This document shows positions 1-20,606 of a stretch of 21,732 nt of DNA, piece after piece. The notes beneath the pieces were generated by a model that was not told the origin of the DNA, ran no database searches, and saw only the letters and a list, made by a program, of their open reading frames with translations. Positions within the stretch are counted from its first letter, which is position 1, and the number at the start of each line of letters is the position of its first letter. Source of the stretch: a virus; IMG/VR virus record IMGVR_UViG_3300042883_000537, positions 1 through 21,732 of that record; one strand, written 5' to 3'. The position numbers and the translations under genes are program-made.

Positions 1-2
1 GA

Positions 3-1930: not shown

Positions 1931-1931
1931 A

Positions 1932-5726: not shown

Positions 5727-5727
5727 T

Positions 5728-6420
5728 ATGACAGGCGTAACAGCATTAATGACCAGTTATGGCGGAAGCTCACTGCCAACTTTGGTATACGATTTAGACG
5801 CAGCCAACTATTCTGCTGTGCCTGTGAACGGCACCTCGGATGCTACAGGAACTTACACACTATCGGTGGCCAATGCTGGCGGCAGTATTTCTTGGCAATC
5901 TGCCAACGGTGGGGTATTTAGAAAAAGCAACAACGTGGGCACTGATGTTATCTATGGTGGTCCTAACTATGTCACCGGACAAAGTTACACAGTGTTCATG
6001 GCCTACAAACGCATAGCAACTGCTGATGGTAGATTATTGAACACACAAAGCGAAGCCAGCAAAGACTGGCTCATGGGTCTGTACAACGGCCACGACCAAA
6101 CATTCTATCCTAACTTTGCAGTTAACCTGCCGTCATCGGGTGCTGATCTCTTCTGGCATCTTGATTTTGCTACTTGGAACACTTCAACAGGTCTAGGACA
6201 ACTATATTCTGCAACCAGTTCCTCGCCAACTGGCACATTGTTCACCGGCACCAATGCTGGTGGTGGTGGTTTCAATCAGTTGCGATTGTTCAGTCGTTCA
6301 TCAGGCAGTGAAGTACAAACAGCTGATATAGGATTTATCAAAGTCTATAATGGTGTATTAACGCTGTCCAATGTTCAGTCGCTGTATACCACATACAAAG
6401 CAAGATTTGGATACCCATAA
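5728..6420 (+). CDS. LamG/concanavalin A-like domain protein, probable fibre accessory or tip
   Basis: A 230-aa protein separated from the preceding fibre gene by a single base, so almost certainly co-translated with it. The pattern LVYDLDAANYSAVP, followed by a SYTVFMAYKR strand, a central WLMGLYNGHD segment and a C-terminal IGFIKVYNGVLTLSNVQSLY helix and strand, fits the LamG/concanavalin A-like jelly-roll fold seen in many phage fibre-associated proteins. Such domains usually bind glycans. It lacks the N-terminal attachment module of its neighbours and has no signal peptide, so it may ride on the preceding fibre as a separately encoded tip or adhesin. The fold assignment comes from pattern recognition and is moderately secure; the binding target is unknown. 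Confidence 0.65.
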   Translation: MTGVTALMTSYGGSSLPTLVYDLDAANYSAVPVNGTSDATGTYTLSVANAGGSISWQSANGGVFRKSNNVGTDVIYGGPNYVTGQSYTVFMAYKRIATADGRLLNTQSEASKDWLMGLYNGHDQTFYPNFAVNLPSSGADLFWHLDFATWNTSTGLGQLYSATSSSPTGTLFTGTNAGGGGFNQLRLFSRSSGSEVQTADIGFIKVYNGVLTLSNVQSLYTTYKARFGYP

Positions 6421-6442
6421 AACGGTAAATATCCTAAAGAGA
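6420..6442 (+). promoter_or_regulatory. Late-promoter-like element with RBS, copy 1
   Basis: AAACGGTAAATAT, one variable base, then CTAAAGAGA, ending seven bases before the ATG at 6450. The same 23-nt element with one difference, at the same distance from the ATG, precedes the fibre gene at 10025. The GGTAAATA core (6424-6431) agrees with the T4 late box TATAAATA at six of eight positions, and AAAGAGA may serve as ribosome-binding site. Role inferred. Confidence 0.5.
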
Positions 6443-6449
6443 ACACACA

Positions 6450-9400: not shown

Positions 9401-9488
9401 TGAACAAACACAAAGCATTGAGGAGATTGAAACTCATATCCAATGGTTGCTGTCATTAGAAGTTGAGAAAGAAACTGAGAGCGTATGA
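6450..9488 (+). CDS. Tail-fibre protein with C-terminal Hint (hedgehog/intein-like) domain
   Basis: A 1012-aa fibre. The N-terminus has the common phage-fibre opening YTGDNGITYTWDGVKWIVQ (about 18-36), then a YTDLTNKPTIP linker and nine WxFGxDGxLTLP-type repeats from about 165 to 690. Near residue 804 the sequence changes character. NPCLVRGTLITMAD matches intein/Hint block A with Cys804 as the candidate nucleophile, GDSPKAHRIF supplies the block B histidine (His878), and YNVMTDYHMNLFANSIL (from about 925) matches the block F region. The usual C-terminal His-Asn is missing, so splicing is not expected; N-terminal autocleavage at Cys804 is possible. About 70 more residues follow, ending in a charged helical tail. 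The stop overlaps the next start (ATGA). Fibre role is secure and the Hint call strong; any cleavage is inference. Confidence 0.85.
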   Translation: MAILNFPNSGLVANATQYTGDNGITYTWDGVKWIVQSAGIVGTISYTDLTNKPTIPTSFDRLVNGANTVSLGSDGSLTLPATGSLSTGSIYFNGSLHTGSQSQYQFEEIITGEGEEAVYSSKLSLPNIAEIFAGEDLSLSTWGSGVAIKVRNPSDFSDHTWSFDNNGSLTLPGALTFPSGGGNIRSEGNINIDINLTDSTLRRWQFGEDGDLILPAGGDIKNSTGTSVLGGGGGSSLVNGTETFTLSATGNATFSGETGGVNRGIVWDYGAVAGGVNSRIRQDEDGLTVRAYTENGGNYAAPVRILTNQGDNERVWQFDGAGDLTLPTGGDIKDSEGNSVLGGGTGDSLTSNNDINITVNSEDSSSYTWNFGQTGILTAPDDIVTGTNGGRFVQDCGDGTTSMRWINVEVDDDTTQLIRAYSGDPDGEGDSDERAQIKLNWQDEYRSGLTIRSFDRTDSMSTVSHDWKFQGDGGLELPGDIRSEGAINIDINLSDSTLHRWQFGEDGNLTFPSGMTMGYLEGAEGIQGSVNTTVGILSQGTSGAAALQWINDAENATAVATVIVNSLFAPSTGTVQIITGDVGPVPEHSWTFGPDGDLTLPDGGPIWFGGNNCRIQALQAFSISSDGGIVVEVTDKQWAFGLDGTLTLPNDGGIKSSTNIDITIDTPDSSTFNWRFGADGELTLPVGGDIVDSTGASVLGGGTSIPTVVTTGAVGVDGAAHAKVQFTVASGTEVTAVGVTVIGVSVPANSRITLSGSPGTGSFDIVAVATYTTPGDTYIFTPFATNASGTGYGAPIAGEGTNPCLVRGTLITMADMSRVAVENITYNDDILVWDFDLGEFASAKPIWIKKTQTAVVSCLLTFSDHSELQIVGDSPKAHRIFNKEAGKFTYGSMPETPIGTTTFNDQGEEITLISKEWIVGEVEFYNVMTDYHMNLFANSILTSMRYNNVYPITDMKFVKDSRTLRTADDYPNVEERLYKGFRLAEQTQSIEEIETHIQWLLSLEVEKETESV
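7011..7093 (+). repeat. Inter-gene repeat type 1, copy 3
   Basis: Encodes NINIDINLTDSTLRRWQFGE plus DGDLILP. DNA is nearly the same as the copies at 3699 and 4364 in the fibre gene two positions upstream. Confidence 0.85.
7902..7984 (+). repeat. Inter-gene repeat type 1, copy 4
   Basis: Encodes AINIDINLSDSTLHRWQFGE plus DGNLTFP. This is the most diverged of the four type 1 copies. Confidence 0.8.
8421..8503 (+). repeat. Inter-gene repeat type 2, copy 2
   Basis: Near-identical to 2991-3073 and encodes NIDITIDTPDSSTFNWRFGA. It is the last fibre repeat but one module before the Hint domain. Confidence 0.85.
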
Positions 9489-10003
9489 AAGTGTTATTCT
9501 TGGATCACTACGGTGTACTGTGTTTGAGTCCCAAGCCTGTTACAAGAACTGAGTTCAGTATGCCCACATCAGATGAATTTGCTGACACGGGTATAACTTT
9601 TTTCAGCGACTTTGATCCTGATGCGGTAGCTGTGTTGAATGATATCATACAGCGAACAGGTGCTGAGATAGTGATCTCTAGTGATTGGAAACGAGAAACC
9701 ACCCTGAGTGGAATGTGTGAATTTTATCAGGAACAGGGCATAGAAAAAATGCCCTTGGCCTATACTGCGTGGTTGCCCGGAGCAGCCACATATCACGAAC
9801 AGCGGGCTGGTGAAATCACAGCTTGGCTAGATCAGCATCCTGAGATTACCCACTGGTGTGCAGTAGATGATTTATATATGGGCACTTGGTTAACCAACTT
9901 TGCCTGGGCTAAATGTGTAGATCAGGGTATCAAAGATCCCGCAGTGCAAGGTCAGATACTAGAGTTATTAGCCACACAAGGTTTGGATACTGATAAACGG
10001 TAA
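9485..10003 (+). CDS. HAD-superfamily protein with altered catalytic motif I
   Basis: A 172-aa protein whose ATG overlaps the stop of the Hint-bearing fibre (ATGA), so it is translationally coupled to it. It resembles small HAD proteins of the 'Swiss Army Knife' RNA-repair-associated type: motif I at residues 4-12 (LFLDHYGVL), FDPDAVAVLNDII at 43-55, motif II IVISSDWKR at 62-70, an RAGEITAWLDQH helix at 107-118 and the acidic motif VDD at 127-129. HAD phosphohydrolases need two aspartates spaced DxD in motif I. Here the second is Tyr9, so the nucleophile (Asp7) is kept but the general acid/base is lost. Reduced, altered or no phosphatase activity is therefore possible. The location in a fibre operon is odd for a nucleic-acid repair enzyme. 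HAD fold confident, substrate unknown. Confidence 0.75.
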   Translation: MKVLFLDHYGVLCLSPKPVTRTEFSMPTSDEFADTGITFFSDFDPDAVAVLNDIIQRTGAEIVISSDWKRETTLSGMCEFYQEQGIEKMPLAYTAWLPGAATYHEQRAGEITAWLDQHPEITHWCAVDDLYMGTWLTNFAWAKCVDQGIKDPAVQGQILELLATQGLDTDKR

Positions 10004-10017
10004 ATATACTAAAGAGA
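9995..10017 (+). promoter_or_regulatory. Late-promoter-like element with RBS, copy 2
   Basis: Repeats the 6420-6442 element with one mismatch: AAACGGTAAATAT, one base, CTAAAGAGA, again seven bases before an ATG (10025). It overlaps the stop codon of the HAD gene. The GGTAAATA core is at 9999-10006. Confidence 0.5.
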
Positions 10018-10024
10018 GCGAAAT

Positions 10025-10573
10025 ATGGCCATACAAACAATCAATATCGGTAATCAAGTAAACGACGGACTAGGCGATGATCTACGCACGGCCTTTGAAA
10101 AAGTCAATGCCAACTTTGCAGAACTATTAACCACCTTTGATTTAACTGCTGCAAATACTCAAGAATTAGGCGCTAAAGTTTTTAAAGAAAAAACAGGCAG
10201 CATATTAAAATTTAGAAATTTGGTATCTGGTACAAAAATTGTTGTCACAGAATACGACAACAGTATTGAAATTCGTTCCACACAGCCGGACGCTTTTACC
10301 AGCATTACCACTAATGCAGGAATAGTACAGGCAGGAGATAATACCAATATTGCCATCCAAGGTGGCAGCAATATCACAGTCACTGGATCTACTCCATATA
10401 TCACTGTTGATACCAACTTGGATCTAAATGCATTGCTATTAGGTTTTGATTTTGGCCCTATTGGCAATCAATATACTACAGCTCTGCAGGTGCTATCAGC
10501 TGCTGCCAATGTGGACTTTGGCACTTGCCCTACTCCTGGACCATTTAACATAGATCTTGGCACATTGGTATAA
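10025..10573 (+). CDS. Short tail-fibre-like protein with baseplate attachment module
   Basis: A 182-aa protein that opens with INIGNQVNDGLGDDLRTAFE and KVNANFAELL, the same N-terminal module as the 1264-aa fibre. After a short linker (FKEKTGSILKFRNLVSGTKI) comes a beta-rich stretch with NAGIVQAGDNTNIAIQGGSN (about 97-116) and ITVTGSTPYITVDTNLDL (about 118-135), similar to the V/T-rich repeats of the first fibre. It then ends in a short unique region (CPTPGPFNIDLGTLV). It may be a short fibre, or an adaptor that uses the same docking site as the long fibre. Preceded by a late-promoter-like element. Structural role well supported, exact position in the virion unknown. Confidence 0.7.
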   Translation: MAIQTINIGNQVNDGLGDDLRTAFEKVNANFAELLTTFDLTAANTQELGAKVFKEKTGSILKFRNLVSGTKIVVTEYDNSIEIRSTQPDAFTSITTNAGIVQAGDNTNIAIQGGSNITVTGSTPYITVDTNLDLNALLLGFDFGPIGNQYTTALQVLSAAANVDFGTCPTPGPFNIDLGTLV

Positions 10574-10582
10574 GGACAACCA

Positions 10583-13216
10583 ATGATTACTTGGATTACT
10601 CCAGCTGGCAGAATAAGCATAGTAACCGAAAGGATTATTCTAGATATTCCTCTAGAAGCAACATCCGATGTTGGTCCTATTACATTTACCTTGCTGGCAG
10701 GCTCATTGCCTAGAGGGCTAAGACTAGACACAGTGGTTGCCACAGATAGTTCTCAGGGCACGGTGTTTATCAAGGGCAGTCCTACAGAAGTAGAAAAATA
10801 CACAGTCAGCAGATTCGTAATTCGTGCAGACGACGGAGAAGACATTGAAGATCGAACTTTCAGTATCGATGTTGACGGTTCCGATGAACCAGCTTGGTTG
10901 ACCAAAGAAGGGTTCTTGAATGTAGGTTCAGGTGAAAATTATTTTGTTCTTGATAATGCCTTTGTGGATTTTCAACTTGAAGCAGAAGACACAGATGAAA
11001 GCATCGGAGATGTACTTGAATACTATCTTGTGCCGTCAGGTGGAGAATTACCTCCTGGTCTAACACTAACACGTCAAGGAAGACTATTTGGATTTACTGA
11101 TCCGGTGTTTGCTCTTGACGTCGCAGGACCGGGAGGTTATGATACTGAAGCATTTGATATCACAGCACTGGATGTAGCAGAGGCCAAAAGCAACGGATTT
11201 GATTCCTATCTCTATGACAATGTCACCTATGGTTACACCGAAGCCAGTCAAACTCCTAGACGCCTAAGTAGATTCTACACGTTTATTGTTGCGGTATCAG
11301 ACGGTGAGAACGAAATAAGAAGATTGTTTAGGATTTGGGTAGTCACTGAAGAATTCTTGCAGGCAGACAACAGTATACTACAGATCGATACCAATCTGTT
11401 CAGAGCGGATGCCACAGGTGATCGTAAACCAATATGGATCACCGAAAGCAATCTAGGTAGACGAAGAGCCAATAACTACATCACAGTTTATCTAGATGTT
11501 TATGATCCTCCTTCACTTGCCGGCACTATTACATATATATTTTTGCCTACCAACGGTGGTACCTACAGATACAAAGATACCGGTGAAATAATTACCACTG
11601 GCCGATGGGAACTTAGTTCAGAAACTGTGTACTTTCCAGTATCAAATATTAGAACCAATGATCCCGATGACTGGACTGTGATCATACCGGAAACTGTGAG
11701 TGAACTGCCTCCGGGCATGGTGATTGATTCTATCACTGGTGAAATAGCTGGTCGGGTGCCTTATCAAAGTGCTGTAACCAAAACGTATCAATTTACCGTA
11801 CAGGCCATTAATTATCCTGCTACTCTGTCCTCGTTGGTCTACACAGTGTTGCTGGGCAGTTGGAGTTCTACTTTCAACTATACCATAGGACAGGCCGTAA
11901 GGTATGGAGATTTTATCTACATAGCTGTGCAGGCCAGTAGAAATCAATTTCCAGATGCATTGGACAGCATATATTGGACCAAGGGTGTTTCAACTGTTGA
12001 AAAAATATTCAGTATAGACATCATTGGTGAAATTGAAAGCAGTATAGAGTGGATATCCGACGGTGATCTAGGAACCATAGTTCCCAATCAACCCAGTCAG
12101 AAGTTTGTGGAAGCTAGGAGTTTGAGATACGGTGGCAGAGTAATCTATGAAATTGCCTCAGGCACATTGCCGCCTGGACTAGACTTTCAGTCTACAGGTA
12201 TAATAATAGGCAAGGTAAAACAATTTGGTGACGAAAACGGCCCTGGACTCACTAGATTTTACGAAAGAACTGACAGTTTGAATCCCGGTGAAGATAGTTC
12301 TACATTGTCTAGAGACTATACTCCAGCATTTGACAACAACACCAGCTTTGACAAAACTTTTAAATTTGAAATTGTGGCCAAAGATTCTGCAAATTTTGCA
12401 GAGTCAGTGAAAGCATTCACAATGCTGGTGGTGGCAGACAACACAAAAACCTTTGCCAACTTATATCTCAAAGCATTTCAGACCAAGGAAAAAAGATTAA
12501 ATTGGTTTAATTTTATTACCGATAACAATATATTTAGATCCGATGATTTATATAGACCCGGTGATATCAATTTTAGTATCCAAACAGAATTAAAAATACT
12601 GGTGTTTGCTGGAATTGAAAGTGTTGAAGCTGTGAATTATGTACAGGCCATGAGTCGAAATCACTATCGTAAACAGATACGATTTGGTGATCTACAGTAT
12701 GCGGAAGCCAAAGATCCTCTTACACAAGAAACTTTGTATGAAGCAGTTTATGTAGAAGTTGTGGACGAATTTGAAAAAAATGGCAAAAGCATCAGTCAAA
12801 CAGTAGAGCTTTCCGACAACATCAACAGCAAGGTGCTTGTAAGTTATGACACCATAAAGATCGACAGCAATATTCCTTTGATCAGCGACAGTGATCATCA
12901 AAGAGTATTTCCCAACAGTTTTAAAAATATGCGAAGTCGTATAAAAACTCTAGGAGAAAGAGACCGCACATTCCTTCCACTATGGATGAGAAGTATACAA
13001 AATCAAGCGTTTGTGGAAGCCGGATACGTCAAAGCTCTAGTTCTTTGTTACAGTAAACCTGGATCAGGAGCCAAGATAATTTCTAGAATAAAGCAGGCCA
13101 ACTTTGATTTCAAATCAATAAATTTCACCGCAGATAGATATCTGATTGATGTGCTGGACGGTGTCATTGAGAATAAATATCTAGCATTTCCGCAACGTGG
13201 AGAAAAATTACCGTGA
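10583..13216 (+). CDS. Putative-Ig (He_PIG-like) repeat structural protein with CBM5/12-like segment
   Basis: An 877-aa virion protein, probably of the tail or baseplate periphery. It contains four He_PIG-like signatures: LPRGLRL near residue 43, LPPGLTLTRQGRLFG near 156, LPPGMVIDSITGEIAG near 375 and LPPGLDFQSTGIIIGK near 529. Each ends a domain of Ig/cadherin type. Between the third and fourth, about residues 425-468, WSSTFNYTIGQAVRYGDFIY plus a downstream YW fits the W-Y-G-Y-YW spacing of carbohydrate-binding family 5/12 modules. The C-terminal third (from about 630) has no repeats and looks like a folded unique domain. The ATG has an AGGA ribosome-binding site nine bases downstream of the previous gene, and the stop overlaps the next GTG start. 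Surface glycan binding is inferred. Confidence 0.75.
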   Translation: MITWITPAGRISIVTERIILDIPLEATSDVGPITFTLLAGSLPRGLRLDTVVATDSSQGTVFIKGSPTEVEKYTVSRFVIRADDGEDIEDRTFSIDVDGSDEPAWLTKEGFLNVGSGENYFVLDNAFVDFQLEAEDTDESIGDVLEYYLVPSGGELPPGLTLTRQGRLFGFTDPVFALDVAGPGGYDTEAFDITALDVAEAKSNGFDSYLYDNVTYGYTEASQTPRRLSRFYTFIVAVSDGENEIRRLFRIWVVTEEFLQADNSILQIDTNLFRADATGDRKPIWITESNLGRRRANNYITVYLDVYDPPSLAGTITYIFLPTNGGTYRYKDTGEIITTGRWELSSETVYFPVSNIRTNDPDDWTVIIPETVSELPPGMVIDSITGEIAGRVPYQSAVTKTYQFTVQAINYPATLSSLVYTVLLGSWSSTFNYTIGQAVRYGDFIYIAVQASRNQFPDALDSIYWTKGVSTVEKIFSIDIIGEIESSIEWISDGDLGTIVPNQPSQKFVEARSLRYGGRVIYEIASGTLPPGLDFQSTGIIIGKVKQFGDENGPGLTRFYERTDSLNPGEDSSTLSRDYTPAFDNNTSFDKTFKFEIVAKDSANFAESVKAFTMLVVADNTKTFANLYLKAFQTKEKRLNWFNFITDNNIFRSDDLYRPGDINFSIQTELKILVFAGIESVEAVNYVQAMSRNHYRKQIRFGDLQYAEAKDPLTQETLYEAVYVEVVDEFEKNGKSISQTVELSDNINSKVLVSYDTIKIDSNIPLISDSDHQRVFPNSFKNMRSRIKTLGERDRTFLPLWMRSIQNQAFVEAGYVKALVLCYSKPGSGAKIISRIKQANFDFKSINFTADRYLIDVLDGVIENKYLAFPQRGEKLP

Positions 13217-13800
13217 GCAATATCAATTACGTCAGTATAAACGAAAACTTTCCTGTAGCAGGGCAAGATAACGACACACAGGTGTTCAGAGACAACTTTG
13301 ACACCATTAAAACTAGCCTACGCTATGCCAAAGAGGAATTGGAAATTTTCCAAAATTCTGCCACTGGCGCAGCTAGATTAAATCAAAGTAACGATTTCAA
13401 TCAAAATATCATATCCAATGCTGTTTTGCAAGGCAATAGAGATAGGCTATTCGATGGTGAAAATTATAATGCAGCAACATTGGATGTAAACTATACCAAT
13501 GGTGCATATCAAATTTATAAATTTGGTACTAGTGGTTCCAATGTAGAAATAAACTTTCTCGAATTTCCGGAAAACGAAACTCCACCAGGTGTTGGCAAAG
13601 TCACATTGGAATTGTACAGCGACGGATCTTCTAAAACAATCACTTTTAAAAGCATCGGTGGATTGGTCTATAAGAAAAATGCAGCATTAATTTCATTAGG
13701 CACACTTACATTAACATCAGCTACTAATCCAGTCATTTTAGAAGTTTGGAGATACAAATCAGCAACAATATTTCTAAACTATGTAGGAGTGTTCACCTAA
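13213..13800 (+). CDS. Tail-fibre-like structural protein (VAGQDNDTQVFRDNF module)
   Basis: A 195-aa protein starting at a GTG that overlaps the upstream TGA. Residues 5-60 (YVSINENFPVAGQDNDTQVF, RDNFDTIKTSLRYAKEELE) form an N-terminal module I recognise from tail proteins of cyanophage- and pelagiphage-like T4 relatives. Its FRDNFxxIKxxL core looks like a distant version of the AFxKVNANFxEL module in the fibres at 1932 and 10025. The rest is beta-rich (VTLELYSDGSSKTITFK, NPVILEVWRYKSATIFLNYV) and resembles a short jelly-roll or fibre tip. Function beyond virion structure is not visible. An AATAAATA box at 13172-13179, inside the preceding gene, could be a late promoter for it. Confidence 0.7.
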   Translation: MSNINYVSINENFPVAGQDNDTQVFRDNFDTIKTSLRYAKEELEIFQNSATGAARLNQSNDFNQNIISNAVLQGNRDRLFDGENYNAATLDVNYTNGAYQIYKFGTSGSNVEINFLEFPENETPPGVGKVTLELYSDGSSKTITFKSIGGLVYKKNAALISLGTLTLTSATNPVILEVWRYKSATIFLNYVGVFT

Positions 13801-14033
13801 TGTTTCATCCCCTAGAGGAAGATCTCAGTCTACTCAAAGACAGTGAAGTTGAATTAAAACTTCAAGAATTGACTAGAAAATATTTTTTGGCCGCTAGAAT
13901 GGGCAAAAATGAGATGTTGACACAACTGTCTACGTTTGTTACAATATATAAAGAGGAGCTATCAAAGAGAATGTTAGCTAAGACTCAAGGTACTTACGAT
14001 ACAGATTTGAATCAACTTATAAATGTGGACTGA
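13800..14033 (+). CDS. Small conserved phage protein (77 aa), unknown function
   Basis: The chosen start is the ATG at 13800, which overlaps the upstream TAA as TAATG; earlier in-frame starts would run deep into the previous gene. The protein MFHPLEEDLSLLKDSEVELK ... LTRKYFLAARMGKNEMLTQL is almost entirely helical, acidic then basic, with no membrane segment. I recognise the PLEEDLSxLKDSE ... KYFxAAxMG pattern from small proteins of marine T4-like phages, always without assigned function. Its stop lies 11 bases inside the next gene. Likely co-expressed with the late structural genes. Confidence 0.75.
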   Translation: MFHPLEEDLSLLKDSEVELKLQELTRKYFLAARMGKNEMLTQLSTFVTIYKEELSKRMLAKTQGTYDTDLNQLINVD

Positions 14034-14493
14034 AGATAATACTCAAGAAGAACTTGTAAAAGGCGTACTCCGACACGGACCGGCTATGCTTGACCTGTGT
14101 CAAAGTTCTGCAGATCTGTCAAAATACGTTGACACCGTTGTTGCTGAACACCTAGACTATCCAATTCCCACAGACTCAATAGATCCCAACAATTGGTTTA
14201 TTCCTAGAACATATCAAGAGATGGACATAGAAACATTTCTTTTGGAAAATAGTCCCAAATCAAATCACCCAAGAATCATACAGGAACTGGATCTATATAA
14301 AAAACACAATATGATTTTGATGCTCAAGACCATGAAATATATTGTAGACACACTTAGAACTAATAATGTAGTTTGGGGTGTTGGGCGAGGATCAAGTGTG
14401 GCCAGTTATGTGCTTCACATCATAGGTGTACACAAGATAGACAGTGTTAAATACAATCTACCAATAGAAGAATTTTTTAAAGGAGAAAAATAA
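14023..14493 (+). CDS. DNA polymerase III alpha (C-family) palm-fragment-like protein
   Basis: A 156-aa protein. Its C-terminal half (about 83-152), RIIQELDLYKKHNMILMLKT ... NNVVWGVGRGSSVASYVLHI and IGVHKIDSVKYNLPIEEFF, aligns by eye with the segment of bacterial DnaE/PolC that reads VGPGRGSGAGSLVAYALxIT ... DPLxYxLLFERF, the entry to the polymerase palm. The glycine/serine-rich GRGSS loop (121-125), which handles incoming nucleotide phosphates in C-family polymerases, is present. The protein ends just before the place where the catalytic PDxDxDF aspartates would lie, and nothing downstream restores them. It is therefore not a polymerase. It may be a nucleotide- or DNA-binding remnant adapted to a new role. 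It sits among small late genes with overlapping ends. The similarity is clear; the role is unknown. Confidence 0.65.
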   Translation: MWTEDNTQEELVKGVLRHGPAMLDLCQSSADLSKYVDTVVAEHLDYPIPTDSIDPNNWFIPRTYQEMDIETFLLENSPKSNHPRIIQELDLYKKHNMILMLKTMKYIVDTLRTNNVVWGVGRGSSVASYVLHIIGVHKIDSVKYNLPIEEFFKGEK

Positions 14494-14720
14494 TGGTTAA
14501 AGCATATCGTACAATGAGAGGTCGTGAAGTTGATTTTGAAAAACTTAGCCTACGTAATGAAAATACTCCAGCAGTGGGTAATATGAGAGTCAATGCTCGT
14601 GGTGACGAACTAGGAGCAGGTGGTAAGATTATTAAAACTAGAGAACAAATTCTAGCAGACTACTATCAAAACAATCCACGCTCAGTAGACACAGTTGGTG
14701 TCACCGGTAATAAAAAATAA
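14493..14720 (+). CDS. Small conserved phage protein (75 aa), unknown function
   Basis: The ATG overlaps the upstream stop (TAATG) and a strong AAGGAGAAAA ribosome-binding site lies just before it. The sequence contains YRTMRGREVDFEKL, VGNMRVNARGDELGAGGKII and KTREQILADYYQNNP. I recognise the pattern from small proteins of marine T4-like phages. It is basic and glycine-rich in the middle with a helical end, and has no transmembrane segment. A virion or assembly role is possible from the neighbourhood but nothing in the sequence proves it. Confidence 0.75.
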   Translation: MVKAYRTMRGREVDFEKLSLRNENTPAVGNMRVNARGDELGAGGKIIKTREQILADYYQNNPRSVDTVGVTGNKK

Positions 14721-14729
14721 AAGAAATCT

Positions 14730-15152
14730 ATGTCATTTGCATTCGCACCTAAAAAAATCAAAGTTCGAGCCCTGTCTAAGGACATATTAGTTGTTGATAT
14801 GGACATGGGCGACATGACCACATCCAGCGGCATTGTCATTCAAAGTGACAACGGCAAAGCTCACGGAGTAAAACCTCGTTGGGCAAAAGTTTATAAAGTT
14901 GGTAGTGAAGTAGATATAGATGTCAAAGTTGGACAGTGGGTATTAATCGAACACGGTCGTTGGACTAGAAAAATCAACATCGACGATGGAGAAGGTGTCA
15001 AGGACTTTCAGAAGGTAGAAATCAAATCTATCATGGCAGTGGCCGATGAAAGACCCAATGATTTTTATATTGGTAAAGAATTCAGCAACGGCAGCAGTAT
15101 GACTATTTCTCCTGATGACTTTATGCCCGGTAACTTATCTAAAATTGTATAA
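14730..15152 (+). CDS. groES: GroES-like co-chaperonin (gp31 analogue)
   Basis: A 140-aa protein of the Cpn10 fold. Residues 10-45 give KVRALSKDILVVDMDMGDMT followed by SSGIVIQSDNGKAHG. This corresponds to the first GroES strand and mobile loop, ending in a hydrophobic tripeptide (Ile35-Val36-Ile37) of the kind that docks onto GroEL. Residues about 48-82 (PRWAKVYKVG, VKVGQWVLIEHGRWTRKI) form the conserved barrel core. Bacterial GroES is about 97 residues; this one is longer because of a C-terminal extension (about 105-140) unique to phage versions. T4 encodes gp31 for the same purpose, folding the major capsid protein with host GroEL, and this protein probably does likewise. The next gene overlaps its stop by one base. 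Confidence 0.85.
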   Translation: MSFAFAPKKIKVRALSKDILVVDMDMGDMTTSSGIVIQSDNGKAHGVKPRWAKVYKVGSEVDIDVKVGQWVLIEHGRWTRKINIDDGEGVKDFQKVEIKSIMAVADERPNDFYIGKEFSNGSSMTISPDDFMPGNLSKIV

Positions 15153-15391
15153 TGGGTTTTAAAAAATCTTGGGATGTAGGTAACATTACATCTCAAATTC
15201 ATACTCTGTCTAGAGAATGTAGCAGTCCTCACAACGACGGATTTACTGCCTGGGGCTGCAAACAGGATCTGCTAATCATTCAACAGTTGATAAACGAAGC
15301 TATAAAAATTTCGCCAAACTTCGGCTCAATGGAAGACAACTGGTTGAAAGAACAGGAACAAAAGCGTATAATTAAAATACTTAAACAATAG
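15152..15391 (+). CDS. Small conserved phage protein (79 aa), unknown function
   Basis: The start overlaps the co-chaperonin stop (TAATG), implying coupled translation. The protein FKKSWDVGNITSQIHTLSRE ... SSPHNDGFTAWGCKQDLLII is all-helical with a charged C-terminus (WLKEQEQKRIIKILKQ). The FKKSWD ... SPxNDGFTAWxCKQDL pattern is one I know from marine T4-like phages as an uncharacterised protein. No catalytic motif is visible. Its 3' end contains a sigma70-type promoter for the next gene. Confidence 0.75.
   Translation: MGFKKSWDVGNITSQIHTLSRECSSPHNDGFTAWGCKQDLLIIQQLINEAIKISPNFGSMEDNWLKEQEQKRIIKILKQ
15344..15372 (+). promoter_or_regulatory. Sigma70-type promoter upstream of ugd-mazG unit
   Basis: TTGAAA (15344-15349), a 17-nt spacer and TATAAT (15367-15372). 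The start of transcription would fall near 15379, about 20 nt before the ATG at 15400. Five of six -35 and six of six -10 positions match consensus. It lies inside the end of the preceding coding region. Confidence 0.6.
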
Positions 15392-15399
15392 GATTTGTT

Positions 15400-16194
15400 A
15401 TGCGTATAGGTATTATAGGGTTTGGCTTTGTGGGCCAGGCCATTGGATGGTCTTACCAACACAAAGCCGAACTCGTTATTAGAGATCCAAAATTAGTAGA
15501 TTCTGCATCTCTAGATCAATTTGTAGAATGTGATGCTATTTTTATCTGCGTTCCAAGTCCGTCAACTGAGGACGGTCATTGCGACACAACTATTCTAGAA
15601 GACACTCTAAAAGAATTGTTGTTTGTAAACATCAATAAACAAATTCCTGTTATTAGCAAGGTTACTGCTCCGCCCAGTGTCTATGCTCGTCTACAGGAAC
15701 AATATCCCAACTTAGTCTACTGTCCGGAGTTTTTAACTGCGGCCAATAATGTTTCAGACTATGCTAACTCAAACTACTTTGTGCTTGGTGGCGGCTACGA
15801 CTGGTGTGTTAAAGCTAGAGCAGCAATTCATCAAGGTGTTCCATTAGTGCATGACCAGTTTACTATAGTAGATATAAAAACTGCTTCACTGTACAAGTAT
15901 ATGATGAACACCTATCTAGCAACTAAGGTAACATTTATGAATGATTTTAAAATGTTAGCAGACGCAGAAGGAGTTGCTTGGGACGATTTAAAGTATCTGT
16001 CAAAAGCAGATAATCGAATTGGTAATACACATATGAATGTTCCTGGACCGGATGCACAATACGGTTGGGGTGGCGGATGCTTTCCTAAAGATGTTGCTGC
16101 TATAATAATGGAAGCCATTGATAAGAATGTAGACTTTGAACTGTTAGATAGAGTAGAAACAATTAACAAAAAACATAGGAGAAAAAATGACTAA
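15400..16194 (+). CDS. ugd: UDP-glucose/GDP-mannose dehydrogenase family protein, short form
   Basis: A 264-aa member of the family that oxidises nucleotide sugars to uronic acids with NAD. The N-terminal Rossmann motif GFGFVG is at 7-12. IFICVPSPS follows near 47-55, PEFLTAANNV carries the conserved Glu, and the central helix has KYMMN (Lys166, Asn170). The catalytic loop GWGGGCFPKD holds Cys227 and Asp231. The four residues equivalent to Lys, Asn, Cys and Asp of known enzymes are all present. Usual members have about 390-450 residues; this one stops right after the central helix and lacks the C-terminal sugar-nucleotide domain. Marine phages carry similar short forms. It overlaps the MazG-like gene by 8 nt. 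It may modify sugars or act on another substrate. Confidence 0.85.
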   Translation: MRIGIIGFGFVGQAIGWSYQHKAELVIRDPKLVDSASLDQFVECDAIFICVPSPSTEDGHCDTTILEDTLKELLFVNINKQIPVISKVTAPPSVYARLQEQYPNLVYCPEFLTAANNVSDYANSNYFVLGGGYDWCVKARAAIHQGVPLVHDQFTIVDIKTASLYKYMMNTYLATKVTFMNDFKMLADAEGVAWDDLKYLSKADNRIGNTHMNVPGPDAQYGWGGGCFPKDVAAIIMEAIDKNVDFELLDRVETINKKHRRKND

Positions 16195-16555
16195 TCCTTT
16201 TAGAGACCAAGAGAAGTTTATGCGAGCCTGTGATCAAAGCGTCGACAAGTTTGATGAGCAGCAATACGCAATGTATATTAAACTCATTGACGAAGAGCAT
16301 CAAGAATTATTGGAAGCTACTCTAGCAGAAGATCCAGTAGAACAATTAGATGCCTTGATAGACATTTTGGTTGTGACTATTGGCGCTATTCATTCAATGG
16401 GTGCAGATGCTGAAGGTGCGTGGAAAGAAGTTATGAAAACAAACTTTGCCAAGATTGACAACGAAACTGGTAAAGTTCGTAAGCGTGAAGACGGTAAGGT
16501 ATTGAAACCCATAGGGTGGGTGCCTCCGGAGTTGGCTCCGTTTGTGAGCAAATAA
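16187..16555 (+). CDS. MazG-like nucleotide pyrophosphohydrolase
   Basis: A 122-aa all-alpha NTP pyrophosphohydrolase. The metal-binding pattern is LIDEEHQELLEA (Glu36, Glu37, Glu40) followed by DALIDILVVTIGAIHSMG (Asp55, Asp59). The typical C-terminal NFAKID...GKVRKREDGKVLKP plus GWVPPEL is also present. Enzymes of this group hydrolyse NTPs or (d)NTP analogues to the monophosphate and pyrophosphate. Phage versions have been proposed to tune nucleotide pools or host (p)ppGpp, and the exact substrate cannot be read from sequence. An AGGAG site precedes the ATG, which overlaps the dehydrogenase stop. An intrinsic terminator follows directly. Confidence 0.85.
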   Translation: MTNPFRDQEKFMRACDQSVDKFDEQQYAMYIKLIDEEHQELLEATLAEDPVEQLDALIDILVVTIGAIHSMGADAEGAWKEVMKTNFAKIDNETGKVRKREDGKVLKPIGWVPPELAPFVSK

Positions 16556-16558
16556 CTC

Positions 16559-16586
16559 AAAGGGTCTAGACAGACCCTTTCTTTTC
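16559..16586 (+). terminator. Intrinsic terminator after MazG-like gene
   Basis: Perfect 9-bp stem AAAGGGTCT / AGACCCTTT with loop AGAC (16559-16580), followed by the pyrimidine-rich CTTTTC. It closes the dehydrogenase-MazG unit, four bases after the stop codon. Confidence 0.8.
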
Positions 16587-16595
16587 CTCTATAAT
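16567..16595 (+). promoter_or_regulatory. Sigma70-type promoter for replication gene cluster
   Basis: TAGACA (16567-16572), 17-nt spacer, TATAAT (16590-16595), with transcription expected to start near 16602. The -35 box lies within the loop and 3' arm of the terminator hairpin. An AAAGGA ribosome-binding site then precedes the ATG at 16617. Confidence 0.6.
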
Positions 16596-16616
16596 AACAT
16601 AAAAGGATATGGTATA

Positions 16617-16838
16617 ATGTACAAAACAATTTACACCAGCGTTGAAGTTGACGTTGATCTGTTAGAGTTTGACACAGATGACTTAATCGAAGAACTAGAA
16701 AGTCGTGGAGCAGGTGCTACTGACTACGGCGACGGTAAAGAAATACTGCAAGCCATCTACGAAAAACGTAGAATGAATAAAGATTATCAACAAGAATTAG
16801 ATCAATTGATCTGGTTAGGAACAGGAAGAATTGTATGA
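16617..16838 (+). CDS. Small acidic protein (73 aa), unknown function
   Basis: The first gene after the promoter at 16567, with AAAGGA about ten bases before the ATG. The protein begins YKTIYTSVEVDVDLLEFDTD and has a helical charged middle (DLIEELESRGAGATDYGDGK) and end (ILQAIYEKRRMNKDYQQELD). No known motif. Its stop overlaps the clamp-loader start (ATGA), so the two are translationally coupled. It could be a small replication accessory, but that is only a neighbourhood inference. Confidence 0.7.
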   Translation: MYKTIYTSVEVDVDLLEFDTDDLIEELESRGAGATDYGDGKEILQAIYEKRRMNKDYQQELDQLIWLGTGRIV

Positions 16839-17755
16839 AAGAATTATGGGTAGAAAAATATCGTCCTAAAACCATTGACGGTTATGTATGGCGAGATGAA
16901 GCGCAGCGTAGACAGGTGCTAACCTGGATCAAAGACAAAAGCGTTCCGCATCTGCTATTGAGCGGGCCTCCAGGCATTGGAAAAACCACTATGGCCAAGA
17001 TGCTGGTGAACGAAATTGGTATTGAAGATGCAGATGTCTTAGAAGTAAACGCCAGTAGAGAAACTGGAATTGATTTTATTAGAGATAAAATTGTACCTTT
17101 TATTTCTACTATTGCCTGGGGTCCGTTTAAAGTTGTGCTACTTGACGAGGCAGATCGCCTGAGTCCCAATGCGCAAGATTCGCTAAAAGGCATCATTGAA
17201 GAGTACAGTTCGTTCGCTCGATTTATTCTAACCTGTAATAGTCCAAATAAAATAATGCCTGCACTGCATAGTCGATGCCAGCAATTTCATTTTACAAAAC
17301 TTGATATTACAGAATACACAGCAAGAGCAGCCACTGTTCTAGTAGAAGAATCAGTTGAGTTTGATCTTGAAACACTGGATCTATATGTTAGTACTGCTTA
17401 TCCTGATCTTAGAAAATGTCTCAACCTACTACAACAACACGTAACAGATCAAAAACTGCATCCGCCTACCAAAGAGGATGCAGGAACCTTGGAGTGGAAG
17501 TTTGAAATGGTAACATTATTTCGAGCTGGAAAGATACACGATGCTCGTAAACTGTTATGTTCAAAACTTCGAGCAGATGAAATTGAAGAAGTTTATAGAT
17601 GGCTATATGACAATATTGAGATCTTCGGGGGTGACCAAGAACAATATCAAGCCATACTTACACTGAAACAAGGACTGGTTGATCACTCTATGGTTGTTGA
17701 TCCAGAGATAAATCTAGCCGCGGTATTAATTAAACTTGCTAGAATTAATGCCTGA
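16835..17755 (+). CDS. 44: Sliding-clamp loader large subunit (gp44-like AAA+ ATPase)
   Basis: A 306-aa AAA+ clamp loader. Residues 5-12 WVEKYRPK is the family's N-terminal signature. Walker A GPPGIGKT is at 44-51, Walker B LLDEAD at 102-107, a sensor 1 segment LTCNS at 132-136 and the clamp-loader SRC motif at 146-148, where the arginine acts as trans finger on the neighbouring subunit. The C-terminal collar (about 210-306) is less conserved. T4 gp44 is about 319 aa and forms a 4:1 complex with gp62, loading the gp45 clamp. Neither gp62 nor gp45 is visible here. The start overlaps the preceding stop and the end overlaps the next gene by 8 nt. Confidence 0.92.
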   Translation: MKELWVEKYRPKTIDGYVWRDEAQRRQVLTWIKDKSVPHLLLSGPPGIGKTTMAKMLVNEIGIEDADVLEVNASRETGIDFIRDKIVPFISTIAWGPFKVVLLDEADRLSPNAQDSLKGIIEEYSSFARFILTCNSPNKIMPALHSRCQQFHFTKLDITEYTARAATVLVEESVEFDLETLDLYVSTAYPDLRKCLNLLQQHVTDQKLHPPTKEDAGTLEWKFEMVTLFRAGKIHDARKLLCSKLRADEIEEVYRWLYDNIEIFGGDQEQYQAILTLKQGLVDHSMVVDPEINLAAVLIKLARINA

Positions 17756-18221
17756 AGACAATACGCCAAACTCAGCCAAGGGAAGGATCAGCTACGATTC
17801 TACATCAACTGGTTCTCTGATACCTTTTTTTAATAGGAATGTATCAGAGTATCCTACAGAAGCGGGTGGAGTTAAATTTGATCTAGTACCCGTTACCAAG
17901 CAAAAGGATCTAATGATCAATCATGCTAGGATATATGCCCAGCAAGAATATGATCGCATCATGGAGTTGGTTAGTGTGTTGGAAAAACAGGCTCAGGCTA
18001 TCAAACGTAGATTGGAAATTACAGATTCTGTTCATGCAGCAGTTTATCAATTCCAACCTGTTATGGGAAATATATATTGGCTAGTATGGGACAAAAGAAA
18101 GCAACATACATTGTTAACACAGAACGGACCCAACGATTGGTCTAGTAGTTCGCCGGAAGATTACGAGTATAAGGCCCAAGTAAAGTATATGGGTGACCAC
18201 ACCTGGATGGAAATAGAATGA
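17748..18221 (+). CDS. Conserved phage protein, DUF2452-like, unknown function
   Basis: A 157-aa protein. I chose the ATG at 17748 over a TTG four codons earlier; it overlaps the gp44 stop by 8 nt. The N-terminus is polar (PEDNTPNSAKGRISYDSTST), followed by a helix-rich centre with IYAQQEYDRIMELVSVLEKQ and AQAIKRRLEITDSVHAA. The C-terminal beta part (GNIYWLVWDKRKQHTLLTQN, PNDWSSSSPEDYEYKAQVKY) resembles proteins grouped as DUF2452, in which a tyrosine/tryptophan-rich strand set precedes a PxEW-like element. No enzymatic motif is evident. Its place next to the clamp loader hints at a replication-era gene. Confidence 0.65.
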   Translation: MPEDNTPNSAKGRISYDSTSTGSLIPFFNRNVSEYPTEAGGVKFDLVPVTKQKDLMINHARIYAQQEYDRIMELVSVLEKQAQAIKRRLEITDSVHAAVYQFQPVMGNIYWLVWDKRKQHTLLTQNGPNDWSSSSPEDYEYKAQVKYMGDHTWMEIE

Positions 18222-18460
18222 ACAACAGATATATGATTGTAACTTATGTTAAAAAGCCCAATGGCAAATGGGATGAATTAACAGAGTTTAAAAACAATAT
18301 TAGAACCAAGCACATTCAAAGTGCCAAGGTTATCCTAGACTTTAAAGAAAAGAAATGTGTTGTAAACAGTCTCAACAGAGAAGCTACATTTGATGATATG
18401 TTAGAAATGTATAAAAGAGTATTGGGGGATCAACTGACCCCCCATCTCCCTAAAGATTAA
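18218..18460 (+). CDS. Small basic protein (80 aa), unknown function
   Basis: Starts in an ATGA overlap with the previous gene. The sequence NRYMIVTYVKKPNGKWDELT ... QSAKVILDFKEKKCVVNSLN has an alternating beta-alpha-beta look and a helical end (DDMLEMYKRVLGDQL). No known motif. It ends tail to tail with phoH, sharing four bases. Confidence 0.65.
   Translation: MNNRYMIVTYVKKPNGKWDELTEFKNNIRTKHIQSAKVILDFKEKKCVVNSLNREATFDDMLEMYKRVLGDQLTPHLPKD
18424..18443 (-). terminator. Possible terminator hairpin for phoH
   Basis: GGGGG and CCCCC arms (18424-18428, 18438-18442) plus TC/GA with one bulged A form a GC-rich hairpin inside the end of the convergent plus-strand gene. In the phoH direction it is followed by a moderately T-rich stretch (CTCTTTTAT). 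No U-run follows in the plus direction. Weak call. Confidence 0.35.
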
Positions 18461-19200
18461 TCATCACCATATATTGTTAATATCTCCTTTACTGCCTCGT
18501 GGCGTTCAATGTCTCCTGCAGTAAATTTGCAAAGATCTACATACCTGTGATTTGCAAAGTTGTTATACAACCCTAGGAACTCGAGAAGCCCGTTGTTTGA
18601 CGGACGGTCTGCTTGTTGCAAATCTCCAGTGACTACCATCTTAGATCCGATACCCAGCCTAGTAAGCAGCATTTTCATTTGACTAGGCGTAGCGTTCTGC
18701 ATTTCGTCTGCTATAATTACTGAATTTTTAAAAGTCCGACCTCTCATATATGCTAGAGGACTGGTCTCAATGATTCCTTCCGCTACCATATGTTCAATTT
18801 CTTTGGAATTGTAATTTTCAGCTACTACATCCATAATTGGTCTTGTCCAAGGAGCCATTTTTTCATTTAGATCCCCAGGTAAAAATCCGTGGTCTTCATC
18901 TACTGACACAGCTGGTCTTGTAATTATTATCTTGGTAGCATCTCCGTATTTGAGTTGATCAATAGCCCATTGCACAGCCAACATGGTTTTACCCGTGCCT
19001 GCAGGACCTGTAGCAAACACAATCATTTTATTTGGATCGTTTAGCTTCAACAGGTAGTCTTCTTGACTGAGATTTTTGGGATATATTTGAACTCTAGGAC
19101 GTTTTTTGTAAGATGTATTATCTACTAGGTTAATGACGTTAGACGCTTGGTAATGATGAGCATTAGCTGTTTTCAGCGGTGCTGCTTTTTTTCTCTTCAT
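18457..19200 (-). CDS. phoH: PhoH-like ATPase
   Basis: A 247-aa P-loop protein on the opposite strand to all its neighbours. Walker A GPAGTGKT is at 65-72, IITRPAVSV at 92-100, Walker B IIADEMQNATPSQMKMLLTR starting at 162, TGDLQQAD at 191-198 and the terminal IERHEAV at 231-237. These are hallmarks of the PhoH family (ATPase, predicted RNA helicase-like or RNA-processing partner). Marine phages carry phoH very often, and its benefit is unsettled; phosphate-stress control is not shown by this sequence. The first 35 residues are basic (KRKKAAPLK) and specific to phage forms. An AGGAGGG ribosome-binding site lies about ten bases before the ATG. Confidence 0.92.
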   Translation of the reverse strand: MKRKKAAPLKTANAHHYQASNVINLVDNTSYKKRPRVQIYPKNLSQEDYLLKLNDPNKMIVFATGPAGTGKTMLAVQWAIDQLKYGDATKIIITRPAVSVDEDHGFLPGDLNEKMAPWTRPIMDVVAENYNSKEIEHMVAEGIIETSPLAYMRGRTFKNSVIIADEMQNATPSQMKMLLTRLGIGSKMVVTGDLQQADRPSNNGLLEFLGLYNNFANHRYVDLCKFTAGDIERHEAVKEILTIYGDD

Positions 19201-19228
19201 ATAAGGTTAGCCCTCCTGTTAAATGTTA

Positions 19229-19261
19229 GGCACGGACCTCAAACCGTTGGTGTCCGTGGCC
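19229..19261. other. Strong hairpin in divergent intergenic region
   Basis: CACGGAC (19231-19237) pairs with GTCCGTG (19252-19258). After one C/T mismatch, TCAA pairs with TTGG around an ACCG loop. GG (19229-19230) can pair with CC (19260-19261) over a bulged G. No T-run follows on either strand, so it is unlikely to be a simple terminator. It would lie in the phoH 5' leader if transcription starts beyond it. Confidence 0.55.
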
Positions 19262-19321
19262 GAACACAACAGTATTTAACAACAAGTTCTAAAAGTTATA
19301 AGTTGTGTTAAAGAAACTACT

Positions 19322-19332
19322 GGAATAAATAC
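19322..19332 (+). promoter_or_regulatory. Late-promoter-like box
   Basis: AATAAATA at 19324-19331 matches the T4 late consensus TATAAATA at seven of eight positions. Transcription would then start near 19337, just at the GGGAG ribosome-binding site. This favours the ATG at 19346 as start of the next gene over the ATG at 19334. Confidence 0.5.
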
Positions 19333-19345
19333 AATGGGAGATACT

Positions 19346-19879
19346 ATGGCCGACATCAAAGACATTATAGCTAATATAGAAAACGTATACGGATCTAACA
19401 ATAGTCTTAATCTTTTAAAAGATTTTGAAAGAGTTATCGATGAATTAGACACCTACGTCTACGATAATTGGATAGACGGCGAACTGGTCCAAGGTCCTAT
19501 TGAAAGTAGATACTGGGTACAGTGTACATTCATGTGGCCCAAAGAACAAATGCCCGAACCACAAGGTGGCAAACGACTATTAGACTACGGCTGTAAAGTG
19601 CAGTTTGCAGAAACTAAACTGGCCAAAGTTAGAAAAATTAAAAAGCCAGATGATATTAGACCCGGGACAAAGAAAGGTAAAATTGATCAAGAAGATATAT
19701 GGATGGTCAAAATCACTATGCCTAAAAAATTAATGAATGATATCAATCGCGGATACCGTAATTTAGATAAAAACAAAGTTGAAGATATTCTAAATCAACA
19801 AGGCGCTGTTAACATTCAGGCCGATGCAGCAGAAGCACAAGTACAGGATATGGCAAATGCAGAACAACCAGCAGCTTAA
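19346..19879 (+). CDS. Conserved T4-like phage protein, unknown function (first of a pair)
   Basis: A 177-aa protein from the ATG at 19346. This start has GGGAG five bases upstream; the ATG at 19334 would leave almost no leader after the late-promoter-like box. The sequence begins ADIKDIIANIENVYGSNNSL and continues with LLKDFERVIDELDTYVYDNW, EGxxx-like acidic turns, and WVQCTFMWPKEQMPEPQGGK. A beta part then reads LLDYGCKVQFAETKLAKVRK and KKPDDIRPGTKKGKIDQEDI, followed by WMVKITMPKKLM. I know this pattern from marine T4-like phages without function. The alanine/glutamine-rich C-terminal tail (about 150-177) looks disordered. It overlaps the partner gene by 23 nt. Confidence 0.7.
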   Translation: MADIKDIIANIENVYGSNNSLNLLKDFERVIDELDTYVYDNWIDGELVQGPIESRYWVQCTFMWPKEQMPEPQGGKRLLDYGCKVQFAETKLAKVRKIKKPDDIRPGTKKGKIDQEDIWMVKITMPKKLMNDINRGYRNLDKNKVEDILNQQGAVNIQADAAEAQVQDMANAEQPAA

Positions 19880-20606
19880 CGAAGGATTGAGATCGTTAGA
19901 TCTACAAGAAATGATCTATCCATTATTTGAGATTGACAGTCACAGATCTAAAATGGGTGAAGATCGAGATGTTTGCGTAATCACTTTCAAAGTCAAAGAT
20001 CGAAATCCTGCTAAGGATGTCATGGAATTTATAGAAAAAGGATTTGAGTTTGTGCTAGATTCAGATGTTAGCTCTGGAGAAAACGCCAAGGGTGAATATT
20101 TTGTATTTGTTGAACTGAATCGTACTCCCCAAATTTCTAAGCAAATTGAAGAAATTACCTATGGAGTTAAGAAACTTACAGGAATAGATAACTGGAAATT
20201 TAAATATCACAAGATGTCTGATGAATTTGATATGACTCAAGAATCATTGGATCGCATTGTTCCTCCTACTCCGAATGAATACGATCGCAATCTAAATAAA
20301 TTACAAACAGAAGGAATTAAACGTTTCTTCAGCAAAACTCTAATGGACGATCTAACATTAGACGGTGATGTTATCACAATACACAAACCTTTTAACAAAC
20401 AGATCAAACTGCGTATGGTAAAAGAAGCTGCTACTGATTCTATCCTAGAAGGAGTAGTAGACGCTATCATAATGGATGATGCTTCTACTAGTGAAGTATT
20501 TTGGCTAACTAAAGTACTAGGCGACTACAATATCAACAAGGTAGGCGACAAATTTATGTTTGACAACAACGGTCAAGCAATGCTATTACAAAGGATTGAA
20601 CAATGA
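19857..20606 (+). CDS. Conserved T4-like phage protein, unknown function (second of a pair)
   Basis: A 249-aa protein. The start is uncertain. I chose the ATG at 19857 with AGGAT upstream; an ATG at 19824 would add 11 residues that look like out-of-frame reading of the previous gene's tail. Residues near 15-60 give LQEMIYPLFEIDSHRSKMGE and DRDVCVITFKVKDRNPAKDV, then EFIEKGFEFVLDSDVSSGEN. Mixed alpha/beta structure follows, with TYGVKKLTGIDNWKFKYHK and a C-terminal VFWLTKVLGDYNINKVGDKF. The MGEDxDVCVxxFxVxxR stretch recurs in marine T4-like phages. It is coupled to both its upstream partner and the endolysin (ATGA), so it is a late gene, perhaps virion-related. Confidence 0.7.
   Translation: MQNNQQLNEGLRSLDLQEMIYPLFEIDSHRSKMGEDRDVCVITFKVKDRNPAKDVMEFIEKGFEFVLDSDVSSGENAKGEYFVFVELNRTPQISKQIEEITYGVKKLTGIDNWKFKYHKMSDEFDMTQESLDRIVPPTPNEYDRNLNKLQTEGIKRFFSKTLMDDLTLDGDVITIHKPFNKQIKLRMVKEAATDSILEGVVDAIIMDDASTSEVFWLTKVLGDYNINKVGDKFMFDNNGQAMLLQRIEQ

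Follow-up and report, generated by a model that had tools for sequence, protein, structure and literature searches.

Does a terminator hairpin whose loop doubles as part of a promoter act as a place where host RNA polymerase stops and starts again, or do the two signals merely happen to overlap? The question is raised by the window, the whole 21,732-base stretch of viral DNA analysed here (record IMGVR_UViG_3300042883_000537), in which a 37-base element at 16559-16595 separates mazG from a small open reading frame (ORF) and the clamp-loader gene gp44. The original prediction had read two host-type promoters and a terminator as the limits of an early unit placed between late and replication genes. 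Comparison with related sequences led us to read 16559-16595, with a probability of about 0.8, as a compact terminator-promoter cassette for host RNA polymerase, of the promoter-early stem-loop (PeSL) kind and with a register of its own. The comparison portrays it as a conserved and functional-looking stop-and-restart element of a known type.

The two components of the cassette are interlocked. The terminator stem-loop, AAAGGGTCT-AGAC-AGACCCTTT (16559..16580, plus strand), has a perfect 9-bp stem with arms AAAGGGTCT at 16559-16567 and AGACCCTTT at 16572-16580, the loop AGAC and the tail CTTTTCCTCT. Four of the nine pairs are G-C, and the stem is followed by a T-rich stretch (16578..16589, plus strand), as in an intrinsic terminator, where a G+C-bearing stem precedes a U-tract. 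Promoter 2, TAGACA-17-TATAAT (16567..16595, plus strand), has its -35 hexamer at 16567-16572 and its -10 hexamer at 16590-16595, 21 nucleotides (nt) ahead of the next ATG at 16617. Its -35 hexamer covers the hairpin loop and the closing base pair, and its spacer contains the T-rich tail; the overlap predicted earlier was thus real, though it had been placed in the loop and 3' arm. The RNA of 16553-16592 folds at -12.0 kcal/mol (z -3.03), none of 200 shuffles being as good; with 13 further upstream bases the z was -2.03 and 6 of 200 shuffles were as good.

Promoter 1, TTGAAA-17-TATAAT (15344..15372, plus strand; hexamers at 15344-15349 and 15367-15372), lies inside the coding sequence of a 79-amino-acid ORF, 27 nt ahead of the ugd ATG at 15400. 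Both promoters, like the 9-bp stem, are present where the original prediction had put them. Each matches 11 of the 12 bases of TTGACA/TATAAT at a distance of 17 nt, within the 17 +/- 1 nt of sigma70-type promoters. A third host-type promoter, TTGACA-17-TACAAT with a TG before the -10 (13917..13945, plus strand), lies inside a 95-amino-acid ORF. On the two strands of the window together, there are two cases of a perfect TATAAT preceded at spacing 17 by a -35 of at least 5/6, versus a mean of 0.11 in 300 Markov shuffles. Looser promoters in 1-20000 numbered 61 versus a shuffle mean of 49.6 (standard deviation 7.3), which is near background. Therefore, the case rests on the strong sites and on the relatives.

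Among isolates, the gp44-like clamp loader of the window is closest to those of the Pseudomonas jumbo phage PA5oct and its kin (51% identity). We therefore read the window as a distant, uncultivated branch of PA5oct-like phages; the label jumbo would come from relatives, such as a 281,658-base contig. Positions 14000-18500 gave no nucleotide match at E 1e-5 among 50,697 phage records. Relatives were taken as the best 80 of at least 598 gp44 loci in viral contigs, and the 81 loci including the window were reduced to 65 once near-duplicates had been removed. These loci were scanned for terminators first and then for the position of strong promoters, spacers of 16-18 being allowed. The scan yielded 347 terminators and 31 terminator-promoter pairs, and in 24 of these pairs, found in 24 of the 65 loci, no more than 1.5 nt separated the -35 from the centre of the loop. 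From five Markov-shuffled sets we obtained 0-3 pairs each, none of them a loop-centred cassette. The spacer was 17 nt in all 21 distinct cassettes. The compact end-and-restart arrangement of the original prediction thus recurs in relatives at a fixed register.

The stem varies from relative to relative and its pairing is kept. A looser collection, covering all fetched loci of the group with spacers of 17 and 18 tried and pairing required, comprised 48 distinct sequences with 14 stems; the spacer was 17 in 47 and 18 in one, that of PA5oct. Both counts include one probable false match (L206, TTTCCA); once it is set aside, 3, 4, 4, 3 and 3 types of base pair occur at the five inner positions of the stem. 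Since pairing was a selection criterion, the evidence lies in the varied pair types and not in the pairing itself.

The cassette is found before different genes. A pattern scan of viral contigs recovered a type-A stem in 74 stretches and a type-B stem in 42, and the genomes of the bacterial and archaeal collection did not contain the type-A pattern in its TTGACA form. Counting the window, 52 of 75 type-A cassettes stand behind mazG, 1 behind the GroES-like gene and 22 behind other genes or with none called. The first genes downstream of the 52 mazG-side copies fall into 12 sequence clusters, at least nine of which appear to be separate families. Of the 24 cassette loci of the scan, 14 have the cassette between phoH and a dnaJ-like gene and 8 have it behind mazG, and in 2 the nearest queried gene before it is the GroES-like gene. 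Seen from mazG, a cassette comes next in 8 of 47 cases. In PA5oct, the annotated DnaJ gene also lies beyond phoH. The names dnaJ-like, nucleotidyltransferase-like and membrane-like in relatives were given by sequence reading, not by family search. A 56-base cassette query returned weak matches only (best E 1 among the matches listed), and 0 of 32 records had 80% coverage. A vequintavirus match to this query sits between convergent genes; it looks like a shared terminator and was not retained as a cassette.

It is immediately behind the cassette that the window and its close relatives diverge. There, the window has a 73-amino-acid ORF and then gp44, three loci (L001, L003, L194) have a 60-amino-acid ORF, the 73-amino-acid ORF and gp44, and two (L002, L004) have the 60-amino-acid ORF and then gp44. 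More broadly, the interval from the GroES-like gene to gp44 is occupied in relatives by changing small genes (the 79-amino-acid ORF, ugd, mazG, a nucleotidyltransferase-like gene, the 60-amino-acid membrane-like ORF and the 73-amino-acid ORF). Among 44 loci, the 79-amino-acid ORF is followed, as next queried feature, by mazG 30 times, by ugd 11 times, by gp44 twice and by the nucleotidyltransferase-like gene once, other genes possibly intervening. As mazG is commoner than ugd at this place, promoter 1 goes with the 79-amino-acid ORF and not with ugd. The elements said to delimit a unit are thus real, yet the two promoters enclose no fixed ugd-mazG unit: they are set among small genes that change from relative to relative, with a conserved block on either side. 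Because the cassette recurs with different stems and before different genes, it looks like a reusable stop-and-restart part in mostly uncultivated giant phages.

The host-type character of the promoters is supported by a group-wide sense-strand peak at the 17-nt spacing. Over the 65 loci, TTGACA/TATAAT pairs matching at 11 or more of 12 bases numbered 142 at this spacing and 1-23 at each of the other 15 spacings from 10 to 25 nt; perfect pairs numbered 39 at spacing 17 and 0-1 elsewhere. With spacings 16-18 pooled, the real sense count was 164, versus a mean of 16.6 (standard deviation 8.0) and a maximum of 39 in 200 trials with permuted decoy hexamers. The 142 matches are distributed over the 95-amino-acid ORF (59), the 79-amino-acid ORF (29), cassettes (24), the nucleotidyltransferase-like gene (10) and other places (20). 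Those listed among the 23 sense matches at spacing 24 start like the site of the 95-amino-acid ORF, the first 12 bases being compared. A T4-type late promoter motif, TATAAATA, was not enriched on the sense strand (9 vs 11), and the sites were not read as late promoters. A beta'-like RNA polymerase gene was found in none of G001, G002 and G003 (large contigs of the group), PA5oct and KVP40, single-subunit phage polymerases not being searched for, and sigma70 region 2 was detected in KVP40 alone, below the cut-off; this fits the use of the host enzyme.

Within about 520 nt ahead of gp44, a promoter of at least 11/12 is present in 20 of the 65 loci. Eight of these promoters belong to cassettes, and the remaining ones are within, or close to, the 3' portions of other genes. 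Nine loci without a cassette (L040, L057, L059, L060, L061, L063, L070, L077 and L078) have a 12/12 or 11/12 promoter in the nucleotidyltransferase-like gene, which stands immediately ahead of gp44 or one small gene earlier, as if this promoter and the cassette were interchangeable sources.

Several observations weigh against the cassette reading. By the scan, 41 of the 65 loci, some of them incomplete, have no cassette. The large contigs G006 and G009 have none at the strict cut, a looser scan giving two in G006. The -35 of the window, TAGACA, is one step off the usual TTGACA: among the 75 type-A cassettes, for which the pattern left that base open, 62 have TTGACA and 13 TAGACA. The related sequences are not independent events. 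Type B always precedes one gene family (dnaJ-like, 42 of 42), so that not every copy marks turnover. On the minus strand, the pooled promoter count of 44 equals the highest decoy (decoy mean 17.4, maximum 44); 31 of these 44 are at spacing 18, mainly owing to a single antisense site within gp44 (25 of 31), and we took this peak as a coding artefact and not as a promoter signal. Furthermore, 98 of the 142 sense matches are within the coding sequence of three genes. There, protein conservation could imitate a promoter, as the antisense gp44 site shows. Lastly, an Escherichia coli terminator is described in PMC4824070 as falling from about 90% to less than 10% efficiency once the stop codon of a translated gene lies 5 bp before it. 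Because the window's stem begins 3 nt past the mazG stop codon, termination there may be poor on translated RNA.

We considered the possibility that the promoter sites within coding sequence, at 13917 and 15344, are mere by-products of conserved amino acids. Both are in conserved protein segments, and the antisense gp44 site, recurring as it does at spacing 18, indicates that in many loci a promoter can be imitated by conserved coding sequence. Against this explanation, in the 79-amino-acid ORF, where the motif is covered in 41 of 44 homologous loci, TTG serves as the -35 Leu codon in 40 of 41 (background 0.15), and CGT encodes all 35 Arg residues at the position that gives the first T of the -10 (background 0.26); where that position has no Arg, CAT (4) and TGT (1) keep the T and TCA (1) loses it. 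In the 95-amino-acid ORF (motif covered in 60 of 61 loci), the motif codons are TTG for 57/57 Leu, ACA for 57/57 Thr, GTT for 48/48 Val, ACA for 53/53 Thr and ATA for 51/54 Ile, whereas the spacer codons vary. These codons stand among the most biased synonymous columns, with ranks 2, 5, 6, 7 and 8 of 87 in this ORF and 1 and 2 of 75 in the 79-amino-acid ORF; the 11 codons of the antisense gp44 control rank 32 to 293 of 294. The three other motif codons at 15344 rank 15, 22 and 26 of 75, as a by-product would allow, and the -10 is held less strictly than the -35, its Ile codon being ATA 20, ATC 15 and ATT 4 times among 39 Ile; the sequences of the codon test are, moreover, related to one another. 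On balance we find the by-product explanation very unlikely and take both intragenic promoters to be selected at the DNA level. These findings point to promoters kept inside genes by codon choice.

As to the cassette itself, the promoter alone might matter, the hairpin being a side effect or a non-terminating mRNA-stability element at the 3' end of mazG. The short distance to the stop codon would suit this, since it is 3 nt not only in the window but in 45 of the 52 mazG-side type-A cassettes, across 39 distinct mazG sequences, and close stop codons suppress termination in the E. coli system. We nevertheless hold it to be unlikely: pairing is kept through the 14 stems (one probably false), as is the T-rich tail, which the search had also required, and in the dnaJ-side cassettes the stem begins 24-28 nt from the end of the open frame (14 of 14 distinct sequences listed), near the distance of 27 nt beyond which termination was maximal in the same system (PMC4824070). 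Conversely, the terminator alone might matter and the promoter match be a chance product, or a by-product of AT-rich sequence past the T-tract, as the near-background number of loose matches in the window would permit. This is highly improbable, for every distinct cassette of the scan has a spacer of 17 where 16-18 would have been accepted, the controls lack the register peak at 0, and RB49 and KVP40 prefer other registers. A regulated attenuator, in which a leader RNA or a protein would control ugd-mazG readthrough into the replication genes and the promoter would be secondary, seems unlikely as well. The distance to the mazG stop codon shared by those 45 of 52 cassettes would suit such translation-coupled control; on the other side, no alternative antiterminator pairing appeared in single folds, beyond which none was sought, no Rfam family was found in the window at gathering score, and type A also follows genes other than mazG, or none called, in the 22 cases given above, and the GroES-like gene in one.

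Under the cassette reading, host polymerase with sigma70 would bind 16567-16595 and start near 16602, perhaps early in infection, and promoter 2 would drive the 73-amino-acid ORF, the clamp-loader gene and the genes beyond. Polymerase arriving from the ugd-mazG side would encounter the hairpin and perhaps terminate within the T-tract, the hairpin loop serving also as the -35 and the T-tract lying in the spacer of the sigma70-type promoter. Because the stem begins so close to the mazG stop codon, we infer that termination in infected cells would be gated by mazG translation, so that the terminator would probably leak when the RNA is translated and hold when it is not. As small genes are gained and lost where the cassette sits, a gene inserted behind it would acquire a promoter and be partly insulated.

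According to PMC6978380, E. coli polymerase that has terminated can remain on the DNA and begin again from a promoter close by. For such a retained polymerase, the overlapping promoter would be the nearest possible restart site. We put forward, only tentatively, a translation-gated recycling switch, in which polymerase would release its RNA in the T-tract while already on the next promoter and restart directly, with the ribosomes that complete mazG setting how often it stops. If this were true, any gene behind the cassette would be independently transcribed. The two stop-codon distances, of about 3 and about 25 nt, would offer a clean test case for translation-gated termination, and the overlap of promoter and terminator one for polymerase recycling after intrinsic termination (PMC6978380).

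The genes around the cassette are as follows. The window begins with a tail-like block, followed by the 95-amino-acid ORF, a DNA polymerase III alpha-like fragment, a 75-amino-acid ORF and the GroES-like gene. Next come the 79-amino-acid ORF (15152..15391, plus strand; no family match), which carries promoter 1 in its 3' end, ugd, a UDP-glucose/GDP-mannose dehydrogenase-like gene (15400..16194, plus strand; phrog_9148 3e-39, PF00984, PF03721), and mazG, encoding a MazG-like pyrophosphohydrolase (16187..16555, plus strand; phrog_671, PF01503). Past the cassette are the 73-amino-acid ORF (16617..16838, plus strand; no family match), the gp44-like clamp-loader gene (16835..17755, plus strand; phrog_168 1.7e-73), a 161-amino-acid DUF2452 gene (17736..18221, plus strand; PF10504 5e-7), for which the name gp62 would be by position only, an 80-amino-acid ORF and, on the opposite strand, phoH. 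Neither Rfam at gathering score nor tRNA scans gave anything in the window. A terminator-like hairpin on the minus strand (18423-18444; 9 bp, 6 G-C) lies directly past phoH, at the convergent end of the replication genes.

The earlier description of the upstream genes as late is plausible, since the ORF from 1932 matches baseplate and tail-fibre families. Positions 86-5726 hold two long ORFs with AVAIGxxAG-type repeats, giving the impression of trimeric adhesin heads with no Pfam match; the second has a baseplate/tail-fibre connector match. In the ORF at 6450-9488, the C-terminal 150 residues, beginning CLVRGTLI, resemble a Hint/intein-type domain, again an impression with no Pfam match. An HAD-like domain of RNA-repair type (PF18143, 6e-19) is encoded at 9485-10003 among the tail-side genes. 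The 156-amino-acid ORF at 14023-14493 matches only a piece of bacterial DNA polymerase III alpha (PF07733 7e-11, phrog_11127 5e-37), and this fragment adjoins the GroES-like gene in most loci that cover the place.

PeSLs are defined by a strong sigma70-like promoter joined to a stem-loop terminator; further traits are a place among variable genes, many copies, recombination between copies and DNA mini-circles. They were reportedly described in the T4-type phages RB49, Phi1, KVP40 and nt-1, by Arbiol in 2010 and Comeau in 2014. The present cassette shares with them, by sequence, the small unit of terminator stem-loop and sigma70-like promoter, the shuffled small genes and the presumed use of host RNA polymerase. 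The variable setting holds for the mazG-side cassette of the window, whereas the dnaJ-side cassette has its constant neighbour. As for recombination, only the presence or absence of genes behind the cassette was seen. No description of the cassette for the PA5oct-like group was found in the literature searched, which lacked the PeSL and PA5oct transcriptome papers, and we do not claim its absence from print; the main text of the paper on MIJ3, a relative of PA5oct, contains neither the word promoter nor the word terminator. A repeated promoter-like box with an inverted repeat in the haloarchaeal virus HGTV-1 is likened to PeSL in PMC3950731; it differs in having an archaeal TATA box.

Registers were compared by the same kind of scan with promoters of at least 10/12, the offset being that of the -35 centre from the loop centre. 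Offsets of 0 to 0.5 were found in the large contigs G001, G002, G004, G005 and G008; G003, G007 and G010 entered the pattern search only and lay outside the cassette scan. A second form of overlap, with an offset of 4.5, occurs at G001:171738 and G004:78615, where the -35 TTGACT lies in the 3' arm of a GCCAGTC stem before another gene, and the large contigs also have five pairs with far-off registers. Overlapping pairs number 0-2 per large contig and all pairs 0-5 in seven contigs, most of which are partial. Of the 11 pairs in PA5oct, six have offsets of 26 to 39.5 and four of -35 to -54, and a single one is at -0.5. This last pair (186478; Arenbergviridae) resembles the window's cassette in its loop-centred -35, its TTGACA and TATAAT and its place 2.2 kb ahead of a gp44-like gene, and differs in its 18-nt spacer, its stem GGGCAC/GTGCCC and its neighbour gene.

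In RB49, by contrast, the -35 centre follows the loop centre by 29-31.5 nt in 9 of 14 pairs, and in KVP40 it precedes the loop centre by 4 nt (offset -4) in 4 of 6 pairs. The present cassette has a loop-centred -35 and a spacer that contains the T-tract, and its carriers are PA5oct-related phages, not Straboviridae. A shared register is not known as a defining feature of PeSLs, and we conclude from these comparisons that the cassette is a variant of the PeSL kind with a register unlike that of RB49 or KVP40. Composite promoter-terminator cassettes, described in T4-type phages, would thereby gain a further group of carriers, the PA5oct-like jumbo phages. The three different registers preferred by three phage groups suggest more than one origin, or resetting, of the design.

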